DNA from: Gallionella sp.
GTDB lineage: Bacteria; Pseudomonadota; Gammaproteobacteria; Burkholderiales; Gallionellaceae
Assembly: GCA_028707275.1 (NCBI GenBank)
Contig: JAQTUP010000003.1
Coordinates: forward strand, 1-64,000
Length of the DNA: 64,000 nucleotides
Reading direction: 5' to 3'
The notes under the pieces were generated by a model. That model was not told the origin of the DNA. It saw only the letters and a list, made by a program, of their open reading frames with translations, and made no database searches. Positions 17,729 through 43,388 of this stretch are shown here, one piece after another (positions within the stretch are counted from its first letter, which is position 1; each line of letters starts with the position of its first letter). The translations under genes were made by a program, and so were the position numbers.

Positions 17729-17861
17729 ATTTATTTTTGTGTTACGTCGCAGGCTTATGGCACAATGCCGACTTGGTACGCAGAAAAAAAAGCGGGTGCG
17801 CTTTATGCGTCTTGATTTTTGGTTGTAATTCACTGTTTGATTGATACTTTGGGAGAGATTT

Positions 17862-19277
17862 ATGTCGTTGTCGGCAAATGATGTATTGCAAATGATTAAA
17901 GACCACGACGTCAAGTTCGTGGATTTCCGTTTTACCGATACACGCGGCAAAGAGCAGCATGTTTCCGTGCCTGCCAAATACGTCGGTATGGACAAGTTTG
18001 AAGAAGGTCATGCGTTCGACGGCTCTTCCATCGCCGGATGGAAAGGTATTCAGGCATCCGATATGCTGTTGATGCCGGATCCTGCCGCAGCTTACCTCGA
18101 TCCGTTCACGGACGACGCGACGCTGATCATCACTTGCGACGTGGTAGAACCTACCGACGGCAAGGGCTATGACCGTGATCCTCGCTCCATCGCGAAGCGC
18201 GCTGAAGCCTATCTGCAATCCTCTGGCGTGGGCGATACCGCCTACTTCGGTCCTGAGCCTGAATTTTTCATCTTTGATTCGGTTAACTGGAAAATCGACA
18301 TGTCCGGTTGTTCGGTCAAGATCAACTCCGAAGAGGCTGCCTGGTCATCCGATGAAAAGTATGACAGCGGCAACACCGGCCACCGTCCTGTGGTAAAAGG
18401 CGGTTACTTCCCGGTTCCGCCCGTTGACAGCCTGAACGACATTCGCGCTGCGATGTGTCTGATTCTGGACGATATCGGCATCGAAGTCGAAGTTCATCAC
18501 CATGAAGTTGCAACGGCCGGCCAATGCGAAATCGGTACCAAGTTTGATACCCTGGTGCGTCGCGCGGATCAGACCCAGGCTTTGAAATACGTTGTGCACA
18601 ACGTAGCTCACCAGCATGGCAAGACCGCGACTTTCATGCCCAAGCCTATCGTTGGCGACAACGGTTCCGGTATGCACGTTCATCAATCCATCTGGAAAGA
18701 TGGCAAGAATTTGTTCGCAGGGAATGGCTATGCAGGCTTGTCCGAAACCGCGCTGTATTACATCGGCGGTATCATCAAGCACGCCAAGGCACTGAACGCG
18801 ATCACGAATCCTGGCACGAACTCCTACAAGCGTCTGGTTCCTCACTACGAGGCACCAACCAAGTTGGCCTATTCTGCCAAGAATCGTTCTGCTTCGATCC
18901 GTATTCCTCACGTTGCCAGCGACAAGGCACGCCGTATCGAAACGCGTTTCCCGGACCCTACAGCCAATCCATACCTGTGCTTCGCCGCTCTGATGATGGC
19001 GGGGCTCGATGGTATCGCCAACAAGATTCACCCCGGCGACCCGGCTGACAAGAATCTGTATGACTTGCCGCCTGAAGAAGACGCATTGATCCCGACCGTA
19101 TGCACTTCGCTGGATGAAGCGCTCGAAGCTCTGGACAAGGATCGCGAATTCTTAACTCGCGGCGGTGTGTTCTCCAACGACTTCCTGGATGCTTACATCA
19201 CCTTGAAGATGGAAGAAGTGACGCGCCTGCGCATGACGACTCATCCTGTTGAGTTTGAAATGTATTACAGCATCTAA
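17862..19277 (+). CDS. glnA: Glutamine synthetase type I
   Basis: 471 aa. Condenses ammonium and glutamate. GS-beta features: [12 protein letters not shown], the metal ligand region [25 protein letters not shown], the adenylylation site NLYDLPPEE with Tyr400, and C-terminal FEMYYSI. ATG 17862 with GGGAGAG RBS; the 7-codon upstream extension is rejected. Expected to be controlled by NtrC, PII and adenylylation (family knowledge); an NtrC palindrome is upstream and a terminator follows. Confidence 0.98.
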
Positions 19278-19833: not shown

Positions 19834-19868
19834 CCGCCATTTGGCATGCTTATTGCTTGCTTAATGGT

Positions 19869-20912
19869 ATGCCTGATTATCCATACATTACGCCAGACCA
19901 TCTCTCCACCGCAGTGATTCTGCTGGACGAGGGGGAGCGCGTCATTTACCTGAATCCTGCGGCGGAAAATCTGTTCGAAGTGAGCGGAAAAAACCTGCTC
20001 GGGCAGCCGCTGCCGCTGGTATTCACCGATAACGGGCAACTGGCGAGCGCGATGGCTCGCGCGGCAGACAATAACGCCAGTTATATCGAACATGATTTAA
20101 TGCTCACCACCAATGCGCACAGCAAGCTGCATGTGCGCTGCACCGTCACGCCGCTGTCAACGGGCCGCCTGCTGCTGGAATTTCATCCCATGGACAGGCC
20201 GCTCAAGCTGGCGCGGGAAGAGCAGATGCTGGATCAGACTCAGGCCAATCGCCTGCTGCTGCGCAACCTGGCACATGAAATCAAGAATCCGCTGGGAGGC
20301 ATACGGGGCGCGGCTCAACTGCTGGAGCAGGAACTGGATAAGCCAGGTCTCAGGGAATATACCCAGGTCATCATTCAGGAAGCGGACAGACTGCGCGGTT
20401 TGATGGAAAAGCTGCTCACTCCGCAGAGCAATACGCGCCACAGTGCACTTAATATCCACGAAGTTCTGGAACGGGTGCGTTCGGTCGTGCTGGCCGAGAT
20501 GCCCGAAGGGCTGGAAATCAGGCGAGATTACGACACCAGCCTGCCCGCGCTGACGGGCGACAAGGAACAACTGATCCAGGTGATACTCAATATCGTCCGG
20601 AACGGGGCGCAGGCGATGCACGGACAGGGGCGCATCATTCTGCGTACCCGGATCGCGCGTCAGGTGACGCTGTTCAAAAAGCGGCATCGACTGGCGGTGA
20701 TGGTGCAGATTATCGACAACGGGCCTGGCATTGCACCCGAATTGCGCGACAAGATTTTTTATCCTCTGGTGTCCGGACGCGCCGATGGGCACGGACTCGG
20801 GCTGACACTGGCTCAGGATTTTGTCAGCCAGCACCACGGAACCATAGAGTTCGACAGCGAACCCGGATGCACGCGCTTCACCGTGATGCTGCCGTTGCAG
20901 GCCGCTGGTTAG
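19869..20912 (+). CDS. ntrB: Nitrogen regulation sensor kinase NtrB
   Basis: 347 aa from ATG 19869; a TTG at 19857 would add four residues. N-terminal PAS domain (about 10-115), H-box LAHEIKNPLGGIRGAAQL with the phosphorylated His near residue 136, N-box LNIVRNGAQAM, and ATP-lid motifs DNGPGIAPE and GHGLGL. NtrB is soluble, binds PII and phosphorylates or dephosphorylates NtrC according to nitrogen supply. No clear RBS before either start. Confidence 0.95.
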   Translation: MPDYPYITPDHLSTAVILLDEGERVIYLNPAAENLFEVSGKNLLGQPLPLVFTDNGQLASAMARAADNNASYIEHDLMLTTNAHSKLHVRCTVTPLSTGRLLLEFHPMDRPLKLAREEQMLDQTQANRLLLRNLAHEIKNPLGGIRGAAQLLEQELDKPGLREYTQVIIQEADRLRGLMEKLLTPQSNTRHSALNIHEVLERVRSVVLAEMPEGLEIRRDYDTSLPALTGDKEQLIQVILNIVRNGAQAMHGQGRIILRTRIARQVTLFKKRHRLAVMVQIIDNGPGIAPELRDKIFYPLVSGRADGHGLGLTLAQDFVSQHHGTIEFDSEPGCTRFTVMLPLQAAG

Positions 20913-21003: not shown

Positions 21004-22398
21004 ATGAAACCAGTCTGGATAATTGACGACGACCGCTCTATACGCTGGGTGCTGGAAAAATCCCTGGCGCGCGCAGACATTGAATTTGAGAGCTTCTCCA
21101 CGGCAGACGATGCGTTGCGCGCATTGAGTCATGCCTTGCCGCAGGTGGTGGTGAGCGACATTCGTATGCCGGGGCGTTCCGGTCTGGAGTTCTTGCAGCT
21201 GCTGCACGAACGTCACCCGCTGATTCCGGTCATCATCATGACGGCGTATTCCGATCTGGAAAGTGCCGTTTCGGCATTTCAGGGCGGGGCATTTGAATAT
21301 CTGCCCAAGCCGTTCGACATCAACCATGCGGTCGACCTGATCCGTCGCGCGATGGAGCAGAGCCGTCGCAAATTGCATGAGGTGGGTCAGTTGGAGGTTG
21401 CGGCCGATATTCTGGGGCACGCCCCGGCCATGCAGGATGTTTTTCGCGCCATAGGACGCCTGTCGCAGTCCCATGCGACGGTGCTCATCAACGGCGAATC
21501 AGGAACCGGCAAGGAGTTGGTGGCGCGCGCGCTGCACCGGCATAGTCCGCGCTCGGAAAAGCCTTTTATCGCGATCAACACGGCGGCCATCCCGAAAGAT
21601 CTGCTCGAATCCGAACTGTTCGGGCATGAGCGTGGCGCATTTACGGGGGCTGCTGCCACAAGGCACGGTCGCTTCGAGCAGGCCGAAGGCGGCACGCTGT
21701 TTCTCGATGAAATCGGCGATATGCCCTCCGAGTTGCAGACCCGCTTGTTGCGCGTGCTCTCGGATGGTAATTTTTATCGCGTAGGCGGACATCAACCCAT
21801 CAAAGCCAACGTGCGCATCATCACGGCAACCCATCAAAATCTGGAGGAGCGGGTCCGGCTGGGGTTGTTTCGTGAGGATTTATTTCACAGGCTGAACGTG
21901 ATACGGCTGCGCCTGCCGCCTTTGCGCGAGCGGCGTGAAGATATTCCGCTGCTGGCTAAATATTTTTTGCAAAAAAGCGCCGTTGAGCTGGCTGTCGAGC
22001 AGAAGCAATTTGGCGAGGCTACCTTGCAGCATCTGGGCACACAGGAATTTCCCGGCAACGTGAGGCAGCTGGAAAACCTGTGTCACTGGCTGACGGTGAT
22101 GACCCCCTCGCAGCTGATCGAAGTGGCCGATCTGCCGCCAGAATGGCGCACCAGCGGGGCGGCACCTGTCGCTGACTGGAGCAGTGCGCTGGCCGCTCAT
22201 GTGGCGGCGGCCTTGCAGCGCGGTGACGAGGGGATCATGGACGAGCTTGTCGCACAGTTTGAACGCACCCTGATCCTGCAAGCTTTGCACCACACCAATG
22301 GACGGCGCATTGAAGCTGCCATGCTGCTCGGTATCGGCCGCAACACGCTCACCCGCAAGATCCAGGAACTGGGGCTGGAGGACAGCCCGGCAACTTAA
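21004..22398 (+). CDS. ntrC: Nitrogen response regulator NtrC
   Basis: 464 aa. Receiver domain (1-120) with acidic pocket DDD and phosphoacceptor Asp in VVVSDIRMPG; sigma54-activating AAA+ domain (about 137-375) with Walker A GESGTGKE and the sigma54-contact loop GAFTGA near residue 213; C-terminal Fis-type HTH (AAMLLGIGRNTLTRKI). Activates sigma54 promoters under nitrogen limitation. Likely targets visible in this window: glnA, torF-glnK-amtB and the gene at 43113. Stop overlaps the convergent small membrane gene by 4 bp. Confidence 0.97.
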   Translation: MKPVWIIDDDRSIRWVLEKSLARADIEFESFSTADDALRALSHALPQVVVSDIRMPGRSGLEFLQLLHERHPLIPVIIMTAYSDLESAVSAFQGGAFEYLPKPFDINHAVDLIRRAMEQSRRKLHEVGQLEVAADILGHAPAMQDVFRAIGRLSQSHATVLINGESGTGKELVARALHRHSPRSEKPFIAINTAAIPKDLLESELFGHERGAFTGAAATRHGRFEQAEGGTLFLDEIGDMPSELQTRLLRVLSDGNFYRVGGHQPIKANVRIITATHQNLEERVRLGLFREDLFHRLNVIRLRLPPLRERREDIPLLAKYFLQKSAVELAVEQKQFGEATLQHLGTQEFPGNVRQLENLCHWLTVMTPSQLIEVADLPPEWRTSGAAPVADWSSALAAHVAAALQRGDEGIMDELVAQFERTLILQALHHTNGRRIEAAMLLGIGRNTLTRKIQELGLEDSPAT

Positions 22399-39746: not shown

Positions 39747-39763
39747 CGCACATAACTGGTGCA
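39747..39763. promoter_or_regulatory. NtrC-type site upstream of torF-glnK-amtB
   Basis: CGCACATAACTGGTGCA: GCAC-N7-GTGC with an intact TGGTGCA half. Lies about 128 bp upstream of the predicted sigma54 start site, a normal enhancer distance. Confidence 0.75.
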
Positions 39764-39856: not shown

Positions 39857-39872
39857 TGGCACGCAAACTGCT
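39857..39872 (+). promoter_or_regulatory. Sigma54 promoter of torF-glnK-amtB
   Basis: TGGCACGCAAACTGCT: perfect -24 TGGCACG and -12 CTGCT with the GG-N10-GC spacing. Start site expected near 39883, about 38 bp before the torF ATG. Confidence 0.88.
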
Positions 39873-39920: not shown

Positions 39921-40706
39921 ATGTCACACATATTGAACACTCTTATCCTGGCAGCTTTGGCTGTACCTTGCGTCGCAATGGCGGCTGATGCACCCGCATC
40001 GCCACACACCTTTACCGCAAACGTGGGCCTTACCACCGATTATATTTTCCGGGGTATTGCGCAAACTTCGCACAACCCGGCGATACAAGGCGGGCTCGAT
40101 TACGCACACAGCAGCGGTTTTTATGCGGGCGTGTGGGGATCTAATGTGAGCTGGATCGCCGACAGCGGCGCCGTGGCGACTGGCAGTGTCACGATGGAAC
40201 TGGATACGTATCTGGGCTTCAAAAATACCTTTGCCGAAGACTTCAGCTACGACGTGGGCTTCGTTCGCTACAACTACCTGGGCAACTACACTCCTGCAGC
40301 CGGATTCGCCAAGGCGGACACAGACGAAATCTACGGCGCAATCGGTTACAAGTGGCTGACAGCCAAGTATTCCTACGGTCTTGGGCAGTTCCTGACCGTG
40401 CCGGGCGCGAAGGGCACGAACTACCTGGAATTGAACGCCAGTGTGCCCGTCGCGGACAGCGGATTCACGGTTACAGCTCACGTAGGCAAGCAAACGTATA
40501 AGGGCACAACGGCAAACCTGGCAGCAGCGGCTGGCAATACGCCAACCTATACAGACTACAAGGTTGGCGTAACCAAGGACATCAGCGGATATGTGCTCGG
40601 TCTGGCTTACACCAGCACCAATGCCAGCCCGTTCTACACATGGCCTGCAAATGGCGGTAACTGGGGCAAGGGTACTGCCGCGCTGTCTTTGACTCATTCG
40701 TTTTAA
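39921..40706 (+). CDS. TorF-family putative porin (Gcw_chp)
   Basis: 261 aa from ATG 39921 (AGGAAG RBS). Signal peptide 1-22 ending AMA. The mature start TFTANVGLTTDYIFRGIAQTSHNPAIQGGLDY is the hallmark of the TIGR02001 family; Gly/aromatic alternation and C-terminal Phe (SLTHSF) indicate an outer-membrane beta barrel. These genes often precede glnK-amtB in Proteobacteria, suggesting passage of nitrogen compounds across the outer membrane (inference). Confidence 0.9.
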   Translation: MSHILNTLILAALAVPCVAMAADAPASPHTFTANVGLTTDYIFRGIAQTSHNPAIQGGLDYAHSSGFYAGVWGSNVSWIADSGAVATGSVTMELDTYLGFKNTFAEDFSYDVGFVRYNYLGNYTPAAGFAKADTDEIYGAIGYKWLTAKYSYGLGQFLTVPGAKGTNYLELNASVPVADSGFTVTAHVGKQTYKGTTANLAAAAGNTPTYTDYKVGVTKDISGYVLGLAYTSTNASPFYTWPANGGNWGKGTAALSLTHSF

Positions 40707-40723: not shown

Positions 40724-41092
<369 letters not shown>

Positions 41093-41200
41093 CGGGCATG
41101 GCAAAAATACACACCCATGCCCGTCTCCCTCACCAAACCCTATCCAGAGGGCGAGGGATTGAGCGAACGCTTGTGCGGGTTTCAATTTAAGGAGAATGAA

Positions 41201-42712
41201 ATGAAAAAAATCATCGCTTCACTGCTGTTGCTGGCCGCACTATGCGGTCTGTCAGCCCCTGCTTTTGCTCAAGACGCCGTAGCTCCGGCCGCAACAGTTG
41301 CCGCGTCAGCTACCGAAGCTGCTGCCGTATCAGCTCCTGAAGCTGCCGCAGTCGCAGCACCCGTTGCAGCAGCGCCAGTTGCCGCTCCCGTGCCGAACAA
41401 GGGCGATACGTCCTGGATGCTGGTTGCGACCTTGCTGGTCATCATGATGTCTATCCCGGGGCTCGCCTTGTTCTACGGCGGTCTGGTGCGCAGCAAGAAT
41501 ATGCTGTCTATTCTGATGCAGGTATTCAGTATCTTCGCACTGATTACCGTGCTGTGGGCAATTTACGGCTACTCGCTGGCGTTCACCGAAGGCAATGCCT
41601 TTATTGGCGGATTCGACAGGTTATTCCTCAAGGGAATCTTCGATCCTGCTACAGGTAGTGTTGCCAATGCCGCGACTTTCAGCAAAGGGGTGTACATCCC
41701 CGAGTTCATCTTCGCCGCGTTTCAGGCTACTTTCGCCGCCATTACCGTGGCGCTGATTGTGGGTGCCTTCGCCGAACGGATGAAGTTCGCTGCCGTACTG
41801 TTGTTCTCTGCGCTGTGGTTTACCTTTGCCTACTTGCCGATCGCTCATATGGTCTGGTTCTGGACCGGCCCCGACGCTATCAAGGATGCGGCTACACTCG
41901 CCAGTGAAACTGTAAAGGCGGGCTGGTTGTTCCAGAAGGGTGCGCTGGACTTTGCCGGTGGGACTGTGGTGCACATCAACGCGGCAGTTGCAGGTTTAGT
42001 CGGCGCGTTCCTGGTGGGGCGTCGTATCGGTTACGGTCGTGAGGCGATGGCGCCGCACAATCTGGTGATGACCATGATAGGCGCGTCGCTCTTGTGGGTG
42101 GGCTGGTTCGGTTTCAACGCAGGTTCTGCGCTCGAAGCCGGCGGTACCGCAACACTGGCCTTCGCTAACACCCTGATTGCAACAGCGGCTGCTGTGCTGA
42201 CCTGGCTGGCTGCGGAATGGATGCTGAAGGGCAAACCCAGCTTGTTGGGCGCCGCTTCCGGTGCGGTGGCAGGACTGGTAGCTATCACACCGGCTTGCGG
42301 TTGGGTCGGTATCGGTGGCGGTCTGGTCATCGGCGCACTGTCGGGTGTCACCTGCTTCTGGGGTGTCACGGGTCTGAAGAAACTGCTGGGGGCTGATGAT
42401 GCGCTCGATGTGTTCGGCATACACGGCATCGGCGGTATTCTGGGCGCTCTGCTCACCGGTGTGTTCAACACCTGGAGCATGGGCGGCACCGGCATCGTCG
42501 ATTACGTGAACAACACGATCGTTGACACCAGTATCGGTAGTCAGGTGTGGATACAGGCGCAGGCCGTGTTGACTACGGTCATCTGGTCGGGTGTGGTCGC
42601 CTTCATTTGCTACAAGATCGTGGACTTTACCATCGGCCTGCGTGTGAAAGAAGAAGATGAGCGCGAAGGTCTGGATACGACCGCTCACGGCGAGCGTGCT
42701 TACAACTACTAA
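41201..42712 (+). CDS. amtB: Ammonium transporter AmtB
   Basis: 503 aa from ATG 41201 (AAGGAGA RBS). Signal peptide 1-24 (ending AFA) is followed by an Ala/Pro/Val linker (about 25-68, repeated APVAA units) before the first channel helix DTSWMLVATLLVIMM. Conserved features: ALFYGGLVRSKN, FAYLPIAHMVW, DFAGGTVVHINAAVAGLVGA (pore His), DVFGIHGIGGILGALLTGVF (second His). Eleven channel helices expected. Part of an NtrC/sigma54 operon with torF and glnK. Confidence 0.97.
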   Translation: MKKIIASLLLLAALCGLSAPAFAQDAVAPAATVAASATEAAAVSAPEAAAVAAPVAAAPVAAPVPNKGDTSWMLVATLLVIMMSIPGLALFYGGLVRSKNMLSILMQVFSIFALITVLWAIYGYSLAFTEGNAFIGGFDRLFLKGIFDPATGSVANAATFSKGVYIPEFIFAAFQATFAAITVALIVGAFAERMKFAAVLLFSALWFTFAYLPIAHMVWFWTGPDAIKDAATLASETVKAGWLFQKGALDFAGGTVVHINAAVAGLVGAFLVGRRIGYGREAMAPHNLVMTMIGASLLWVGWFGFNAGSALEAGGTATLAFANTLIATAAAVLTWLAAEWMLKGKPSLLGAASGAVAGLVAITPACGWVGIGGGLVIGALSGVTCFWGVTGLKKLLGADDALDVFGIHGIGGILGALLTGVFNTWSMGGTGIVDYVNNTIVDTSIGSQVWIQAQAVLTTVIWSGVVAFICYKIVDFTIGLRVKEEDEREGLDTTAHGERAYNY

Positions 42713-42755
42713 CCGTTAAACTTCTCCTCCCGGAGCCTCTCTGGCTCCATTTTTG

Positions 42756-42781
42756 GGGCGCCGTCAGGCGCCCTTTTTTTA
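42756..42781 (+). terminator. Rho-independent terminator after amtB
   Basis: GGGCGCC/GGCGCCC (42756-42762, 42767-42773), loop GTCA, followed by seven to eight T. A weaker GGAGCC/GGCTCC hairpin lies just before it. Confidence 0.9.
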
Positions 42782-42917
42782 TCCTACGCCACCTCGCCCT
42801 GAAGGGCGAGGTTTAATTGCGTGGAGGAGAGGGGATACAAATCCCTCTACGTTTAAATTCACCAACATGAAGGTTGGTGACAAATTGTTGGCGCAGTACC
42901 GATGAGGGATGCGCGCG
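42782..42917. other. Hairpin-rich spacer after amtB
   Basis: No gene. Hairpins: ACCTCGCCCT/AGGGCGAGGT (42791-42812) and a TCACCAAC/GTTGGTGA dyad near 42859-42880. Leads into the NtrC/sigma54 regulatory region. Confidence 0.5.
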
Positions 42918-42932
42918 GCACCATTATGGTGC
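42918..42932. promoter_or_regulatory. Near-perfect NtrC site upstream of the 91-aa gene
   Basis: GCACCATTATGGTGC is a perfect palindrome of the NtrC core GCACCA-N3-TGGTGC. Centre about 88 bp upstream of the predicted sigma54 start site. Confidence 0.82.
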
Positions 42933-42986
42933 TGCCTACGTGGTGAATATTATTCATATAATTGATTATATTGCTATTTATTGTTG

Positions 42987-43002
42987 TGGCATTATTGTTG
43001 CT
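42987..43002 (+). promoter_or_regulatory. Sigma54 promoter of the 91-aa gene
   Basis: TGGCATTATTGTTGCT: -24 TGGCAT and -12 TTGCT with exact GG-N10-GC spacing. Expected start near 43013, leaving a 5' leader of about 100 nt before the ATG at 43113. Confidence 0.85.
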
Positions 43003-43112
43003 TGTACAGAGTCAGGTACGGGATGAGTTGTAAAATCCCGTGCTGAAGCATCGAGCAGGCGTGACTCGCTGCTGTTTGCCGGAAGTATAACGATTGAAGG
43101 AGGGGTGGAAAA

Positions 43113-43388
43113 ATGTCGGGCGAAATGGAAATACTGTTTTCTTTGACCGGGCGCATGCATGTGCTTTTGCGGCGTGAGACCAATCGCATTATCGACGTCG
43201 AGTGGATGTGCGCGGATGCCGCCTACGCGCGTGAAGTTCTCCGTCTGGTAAGTTTTACCCAGTCTGACGAATTGCACAAACTGGCAGAGCGTATCCTCCA
43301 GGTACATCCTGAACTCATCAAGGAGGAATATCACCCAGCGTACCGGATGGCGCCGAAAGATTCGAAATATATGAGTTCGCTCAGATAG
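43113..43388 (+). CDS. Unknown 91-aa protein under NtrC/sigma54 control
   Basis: No family recognised. GGAGGGG RBS supports the ATG at 43113. No signal peptide or membrane segment. The N-terminal half is beta-like (MEILFSLTGRMHVLLRRETNRIIDVEWM), the middle is helical (REVLRLVSF, ELHKLAERILQVHPELI) and the C-terminus is basic and polar. The upstream NtrC palindrome and -24/-12 promoter are the main clue: a nitrogen-starvation protein, possibly a regulator or adaptor. Monocistronic. Confidence 0.8.
   Translation: MSGEMEILFSLTGRMHVLLRRETNRIIDVEWMCADAAYAREVLRLVSFTQSDELHKLAERILQVHPELIKEEYHPAYRMAPKDSKYMSSLR

Follow-up and report, generated by a model that had tools for sequence, protein, structure and literature searches.

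The small gene behind amtB and its control region

The DNA analyzed here, referred to as the window, is a stretch of 64,000 nucleotides from a Gallionella sp. genome. It encodes glnA, ntrB, ntrC and a torF-glnK-amtB operon, and 400 nt behind amtB a gene for a small protein of 91 amino acids (Table 1). An earlier note, made from the letters of the window, had placed ntrBC, glnA and glnK-amtB together in it; all are present, and amtB and glnK also match their relatives. We take the first gene of the operon to encode a TorF/NlmA-like outer-membrane protein, from its family type and from the nlmA-glnK-amtB gene order of Herbaspirillum.

Table 1. Positions in the window of the genes and sequence features discussed in the text.
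Feature	Position	Strand	Basis or remark
glnA	17841-19277 (frame)		named by reading the sequence
ntrB	19857-20912 (frame)		named by reading the sequence
ntrC	21004-22398		named by reading the sequence
NtrC-like site upstream of the torF-glnK-amtB operon	39747-39763	+	3 mismatches to TGCACCANNNTGGTGCA
sigma54-type -24/-12 site TGGCACGCAAACTGCT of the torF-glnK-amtB operon	39857-39872	+	11/12 scored positions
TorF/NlmA-like outer-membrane gene, first in the operon	39921-40706	+	presumed from sequence type and gene order
glnK (PII)	40754-41092	+	frame opens at 40751; tblastn to relatives
amtB	41201-42712	+	likely start MKKIIAS; frame opens at 41117; tblastn to relatives
terminator-like hairpin and T run behind amtB	42756-42780	+	counterpart between amtB and the small gene in most same-family relatives
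dispersed repeat of ~104 bp between terminator and NtrC-type site	42789-42892	.	genome copies at 71-86% identity
NtrC-type palindrome GCACCATTATGGTGC	42918-42932	.	sequence reading; lone exact copy in the genome
sigma54-type -24/-12 promoter TGGCATTATTGTTGCT	42987-43002	+	exact pattern match
ribosome-binding site AAGGAGGGG	43097-43105	+	sequence reading
91-aa gene	43113-43388	+	ATG at 43113; predicted helical core (residues 3-64), disordered linker (~65-84), tail KYMSSLR

Ahead of the small gene, the palindrome, the -24/-12 site, the ribosome-binding site and the 91-aa frame are all found where the earlier note had put them. The -24/-12 site has its GG at 42988-42989 and its GC at 43000-43001, a spacing of 10 nt, and starts 55 bp beyond the end of the palindrome. 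If transcription begins 12-13 nt after the GC, the center of the palindrome (42925) is about 88 bp upstream of the predicted start, in agreement with the distance given earlier. Compared with the longer consensus for NtrC sites, TGCACCANNNTGGTGCA, the palindrome has two mismatches, one at either end of the 17-mer. Between the palindrome and the -24/-12 site, the AT-rich sequence includes a weak IHF-like match with one mismatch to the IHF consensus.

A pattern search of the whole genome (3,166,950 bases) found the exact palindrome only once. Near-matches to it are common in this genome because 27 sites fit with one mismatch, compared with 3 for the control pattern read backward. The sigma54-type pattern TGGCAYN5TTGCW has 18 matches in the genome and its control 6. 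With one mismatch allowed, the window holds about as many -24/-12 matches (14) as shuffles do (12.75), and therefore only the exact site was counted. By arithmetic from these genome counts, the chance that an exact palindrome would precede one of the 18 sites by at most 200 bp is roughly 2e-4 to 1e-3. The window has one other exact site, matching TGGCAN6TTGCW, at 19842-19857, the very start of the ntrB frame.

The ~104-bp repeat lies between the amtB terminator and the NtrC-type site, so part of the 400 bp separating amtB from the small gene is an inserted repeat. The control region is located between this repeat and the gene. The repeat has a palindromic end, CCTCGCCCTGAAGGGCGAGG, and several further copies in the genome, and is perhaps a miniature mobile element. 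Just before the amtB terminator, at 42724-42748 and in relatives (alignment A6), is a conserved CTCCTCCCGGAGCC-GGCTCC stretch for which alternative hairpins are possible; none of them appears in the consensus fold. A regulatory RNA behind amtB was considered and is not claimed, because the conserved stretch has the fold of an ordinary terminator hairpin, in which one of eight pairs is compensatory. No match to Rfam was found at gathering cut-offs in the window and three relatives.

The 91-aa protein belongs to a new family

The protein had been described as unrecognized, and no convincing match was found for it in Pfam, NCBIfam, PHROGs, the PDB or fold searches. Neither Pfam nor NCBIfam matches the window protein, and the best values among 44 members of the family, 0.0083 and 0.0044 respectively, are scattered. 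In PHROGs, scanned with nine members, only two families of unknown function came up, both as weak matches (best 0.0025 and 0.00065). The best hits of a PDB profile search were designed helical repeats (E 1.2e-4 over 38 residues), which are not convincing, and no structure in the Foldseek searches reached E 0.001. No catalytic motif was recognized in the protein, and no description of the gene was recognized in searches of an open-access collection, from which most subscription papers and preprints are missing. The small protein represents a new family without a name that is associated with a well-known system.

Homologs of the same length, encoded in five genome contigs, are 63-69% identical to the window protein. 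The dN/dS ratio is 0.05-0.28 in 11 pairs, with dS near saturation in the three pairs that include the window. The protein is under purifying selection.

For structure and conservation we used an alignment of 44 hand-chosen sequences (A3). It leaves out further close relatives, the distant member L044, several members with the tail described below (L084, L094, L099, L121) and others lacking it (L088, L098/L129, L120). With these 44 sequences AlphaFold2 predicts helices at residues 3-23, 29-34, 36-47 and 52-64, mostly at a confidence near 90, and then a disordered stretch and the tail; the mean pLDDT for the 91-aa protein is 80.4. As the first helix carries arginines, the protein probably does not span the membrane. 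A distant subfamily, modeled from its own 13 sequences, is predicted to have a helix order identical to that of the close members, and its profile compared with alignment A1, which holds no distant members, gave a probability of 97.9.

Four residues (D28, Y38, Y86 and R91) are invariant in the 44 sequences, and the RR pair (R20, R21), A39 and L54 are nearly so. The core is 60-65 residues long in every one of the 44, and 19-75 residues separate it from the tail tyrosine. All 44 hand-chosen members end in the C-terminal tail (KYxxxLR; Y-x4-R), which comes in two forms (36 and 8 sequences). Members with no tail, all outside the alignment, are the amtB-linked L088 and the unlinked L098/L129 and L120. 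Judged from the sequences, a constant tail held by a linker that varies in length has the look of a docking peptide.

The family is rare in the class. Only 11 of 369 genomes matched in a class search, namely the window's own, one true relative and nine with CRP-like proteins, four of which were read. These last matches bear on a different origin, in which the small protein would be a mini-protein made from the dimerization helix of a CRP-type regulator and would serve as a decoy partner for that regulator. Residues 1-50 of the close members align with the helix-hinge-helix stretch of the CRP-type proteins (L066-L074), presumably helix C, the hinge and helix D, at an hhalign probability of 91.6 with A1. 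However, the distant subfamily does not align (probability 1.5, alignment A4), the PDB sequence searches and the fold search returned no CRP chain, and just one of the 44 members touches a CRP model (E 0.055). Only the close members show the CRP similarity (91.6 with A1, 1.5 with A4). A CRP-derived origin was set aside, and the decoy role is very unlikely.

Distribution of the family and linkage to amtB

To see how widespread the gene is, we searched genomes of the same bacterial family and of the order. A search with the first alignment matched 38 out of 158 genomes of the family: 28 from genus g54, five from the window's genus, three from g45 and two from g42. The gene is patchy: in the window's genus, five genomes carry it and at least 20 lack it. 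A wider alignment matched 33 of 300 genomes sampled from the order. In phage and plasmid collections the matches were confined to Acinetobacter records. One distant member (L044), with the tail HHYIGALR, is encoded directly before pyrB on an Acinetobacter contig that is filed as phage and has neighbors that look chromosomal.

The gene is closely tied to amtB. In 35 of the 38 same-family genomes the gene follows amtB on the same strand at a distance of at most 0.8 kb. The remaining three comprise one with the gene at a contig edge and two that carry the distant subfamily. Another 30 genes were examined, most of them from other families of the order and one a second member in a same-family genome (G164). 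Among them, 18 are amtB-linked, a count that takes in both copies of a genome with two amtB genes (G580), and 12 have no amtB in the 1.5 kb upstream. The linkage persists down to about 25-30% protein identity. Across 52 linked loci, amtB and the gene are 7-281 nt apart in 45, 400 nt apart in the window and 723-761 nt apart in three, while in L045, L046 and L080 the amtB frame reaches or enters the small gene. In near relatives the gene is usually 74-95 bp behind amtB, past a terminator-like hairpin. One copy behind amtB, L089 (G195:C28:215315-215577), is split into two frames.

Two arrangements go beyond simple adjacency. The three genomes with gaps of 723-761 nt (G182, G185 and G186; loci L060, L061 and L037) have, in order, amtB, a sigma54-type site, a second glnK and the small gene. 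Genome G580 has two amtB genes with a family member of its own behind each (L121, L130).

Not all members adjoin amtB. A subfamily with G(A/T)R and one or two more residues at the end of the tail (L076, L082, L092, L095-L097, L118, L119, L122) is mostly encoded elsewhere, with no consistent neighbor seen. The second member in G164 (L123; G164:C2:228363-228611) is also unlinked to amtB and is about 5 kb from nifH (G164:C2:233491).

We also considered whether the protein could be part of the nitrogen fixation machinery, for instance in the ammonium switch-off of nitrogenase, and not of the general control of ammonium. A nifH match is present in 26 of the 38 same-family genomes with the gene, including the window's genome, and in the order sample nifH exceeds the cut-off in 13 of 33 member genomes versus 33 of the 267 others, a comparison uncorrected for shared ancestry. 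Yet such a nifH is lacking from 12 of the 38 member genomes in the family and from 20 of the 33 in the order sample. In the window's genus, nifH accompanies the gene in only one of five genomes, and 10 further genomes have nifH without the gene. The overlap within the family, also uncorrected for shared ancestry, comes mainly from one genus that mostly has both. A role in nitrogen fixation is therefore improbable in our judgment.

Regulation of the gene in relatives

The control region that the earlier note described is not conserved: most of the near relatives with the gene lack these sites in front of it. Taken literally, this is an outcome that the note had named as refuting its reading. 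Relatives with short gaps have neither an NtrC-type site nor a strong sigma54-type site between amtB and the gene. We do not take the missing sites as a refutation of nitrogen control, because the gene there follows amtB at a short distance and, in the five such genomes for which DNA upstream of the operon was covered, the operon carries sigma54-type and NtrC-like sites. Both kinds of site precede torF-glnK-amtB in the window and in G174, G176, G162, G001 and G024, with the sigma54-type sites scoring 11-12 out of 12 and the NtrC-like sites having 2-3 mismatches; this count of five genomes omits L049, L051, L056 and L059, which have less than 80 nt above the torF match, and L052 and L061, in which torF is cut. 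In G101 and G102 the gene overlaps or abuts amtB. Neither torF nor glnK was matched before amtB in the DNA covered for these two genomes, and no sigma54-type site of at least 10 was present in the upstream stretch scanned, which is short for G102. As the sites are absent in relatives where the gene is near amtB, the control region in the window is a local addition to an older association.

In the short-gap relatives the small gene is assumed to be on the transcript of the operon. A terminator-like hairpin, counted by eye, is present in 31 of the 49 measured gaps between amtB and the gene. Since most near relatives have such a hairpin and little room for a promoter, co-expression with amtB rests there on assumed read-through. 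Read-through of the amtB terminator, in most relatives of the family, could result in a lower level of the small protein than of AmtB.

Where the gene is farther from amtB the picture differs. Of 44 gaps between amtB and the gene that measure at least 40 nt, 8 contain a sigma54-type site scoring at least 11 of 12, a cut-off chosen after the window's score was known; in 500 shuffles, preserving base composition only, the mean was 0.044 and the maximum 1. The eight sites are from four genera: the window, G182/G185/G186, G570/G612 and G678/G713. Both G570 and G612 also have an NtrC-like site with two mismatches that starts 89-90 bp above the sigma54-type site. G722 has a weaker sigma54-type site (10/12) between amtB and the gene. 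Ten gaps are longer than 200 nt, and eight of them have a site of at least 11, one a site at 10 and one (L032) none.

It is conceivable that the gene is a neutral hitch-hiker behind amtB and that the pairing of palindrome and -24/-12 site is a chance arrangement, as might be read from the patchiness of the gene and the absence of the sites in most near relatives. The low dN/dS ratios, a linkage to amtB kept down to about 25-30% protein identity, the fact that the one exact palindrome in the genome closely precedes one of its 18 exact sigma54-type sites, and the sigma54-type sites before the gene in four genera all argue against this, and we consider it very improbable.

A more serious alternative accepts co-regulation with amtB and has the protein act elsewhere in nitrogen starvation, for example on NtrB, on the glutamine synthetase adenylyltransferase or on another enzyme, with the locus only buying expression. 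Genes more than about 200 nt from amtB usually have a sigma54-type site of their own, so the timing of expression seems to be what is kept, and the subfamily found mostly without amtB is also in line with an action elsewhere. However, the one member per amtB in G580 and the second PII gene in three genomes fit a physical link to AmtB or PII better than timing alone. We regard action elsewhere as unlikely, though deserving of attention.

A possible partner of AmtB and GlnK

The earlier note had suggested that the gene is probably a member of the nitrogen-starvation regulon with a role near PII and AmtB. Linkage to amtB across several bacterial families, the second glnK in three genomes and sigma54-type sites in four genera lend support to this suggestion. 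From the position of the gene behind amtB, its pairing with a second glnK, the presence of one member per amtB and the recurring sigma54-type sites, we infer a partner of AmtB/GlnK that is made at nitrogen limitation. Against such a partner weigh the patchy occurrence of the gene, a promoter that is not conserved nearby, and the location of one subfamily and of the Acinetobacter member elsewhere. On balance, the 91-aa protein may well be a small cytoplasmic protein accessory to the ammonium channel AmtB and the PII regulator GlnK, a reading that we hold with modest confidence from sequence and gene order.

As such a partner, the protein could work as follows. During nitrogen starvation, phosphorylated NtrC and sigma54 RNA polymerase would transcribe the operon and the small gene together. 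The product would be an adaptor with a folded core that binds one partner and a tethered tail that docks on AmtB and GlnK together or on only one of them. Docking might help the channel to close, open or reset once ammonium is available again; the direction in which the protein acts and the partner it binds are guesses.

An archaeal protein provides the nearest parallel. In Methanosarcina mazei, according to the available part of the report, the 61-aa sP36 is induced by nitrogen limitation, binds GlnK1 and AmtB1, and is needed for the AmtB1-GlnK1 association after an ammonium upshift (PMC10714827). By analogy, the 91-aa protein is proposed to act on AmtB and GlnK as sP36 does. It differs from sP36, which we compared by its description in that part of the report, in being larger and in being encoded behind amtB. 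Homologs of sP36 are found in archaea and some bacterial families, in hosts that, as far as that part of the report goes, mostly lack GlnD (PMC10714827), whereas the genome of the window has a full glnD (786.3 bits compared with a cut-off of 519.4).

A similar operon is known in Herbaspirillum seropedicae. There, in the part of the report that is available, nlmA-glnK-amtB is NtrC-dependent and induced by nitrogen limitation, and the activity of an amtB fusion is 21 times as high under nitrogen limitation as in high ammonium (PMC3023670). The window shows the same order ahead of the small gene: a gene labeled TorF/NlmA-like from its sequence type and gene order, then glnK and amtB. The available text on the Herbaspirillum operon, however, names nlmA, glnK and amtB and no small gene behind amtB (PMC3023670). 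GlnK itself is encoded at the same locus as the 91-aa protein and acts on the channel that is the proposed target of the latter, but the 91-aa protein is predicted to be all-helical, with no PII fold.

Going further, the small proteins could be an undescribed bacterial family of AmtB/GlnK adaptors, a more specific proposal that we put forward tentatively. In these adaptors a helical head would sit on one partner and the tethered KYxxxLR peptide would dock on the channel or on PII. They would form a third component in bacteria that have GlnD as well, and would be independent of the archaeal sP36. GlnK and AmtB are the best-known pair controlling bacterial ammonium uptake. A third conserved gene at their locus, belonging to neither a Pfam nor an NCBIfam family, would mean that this well-studied system has a component that went unnoticed.
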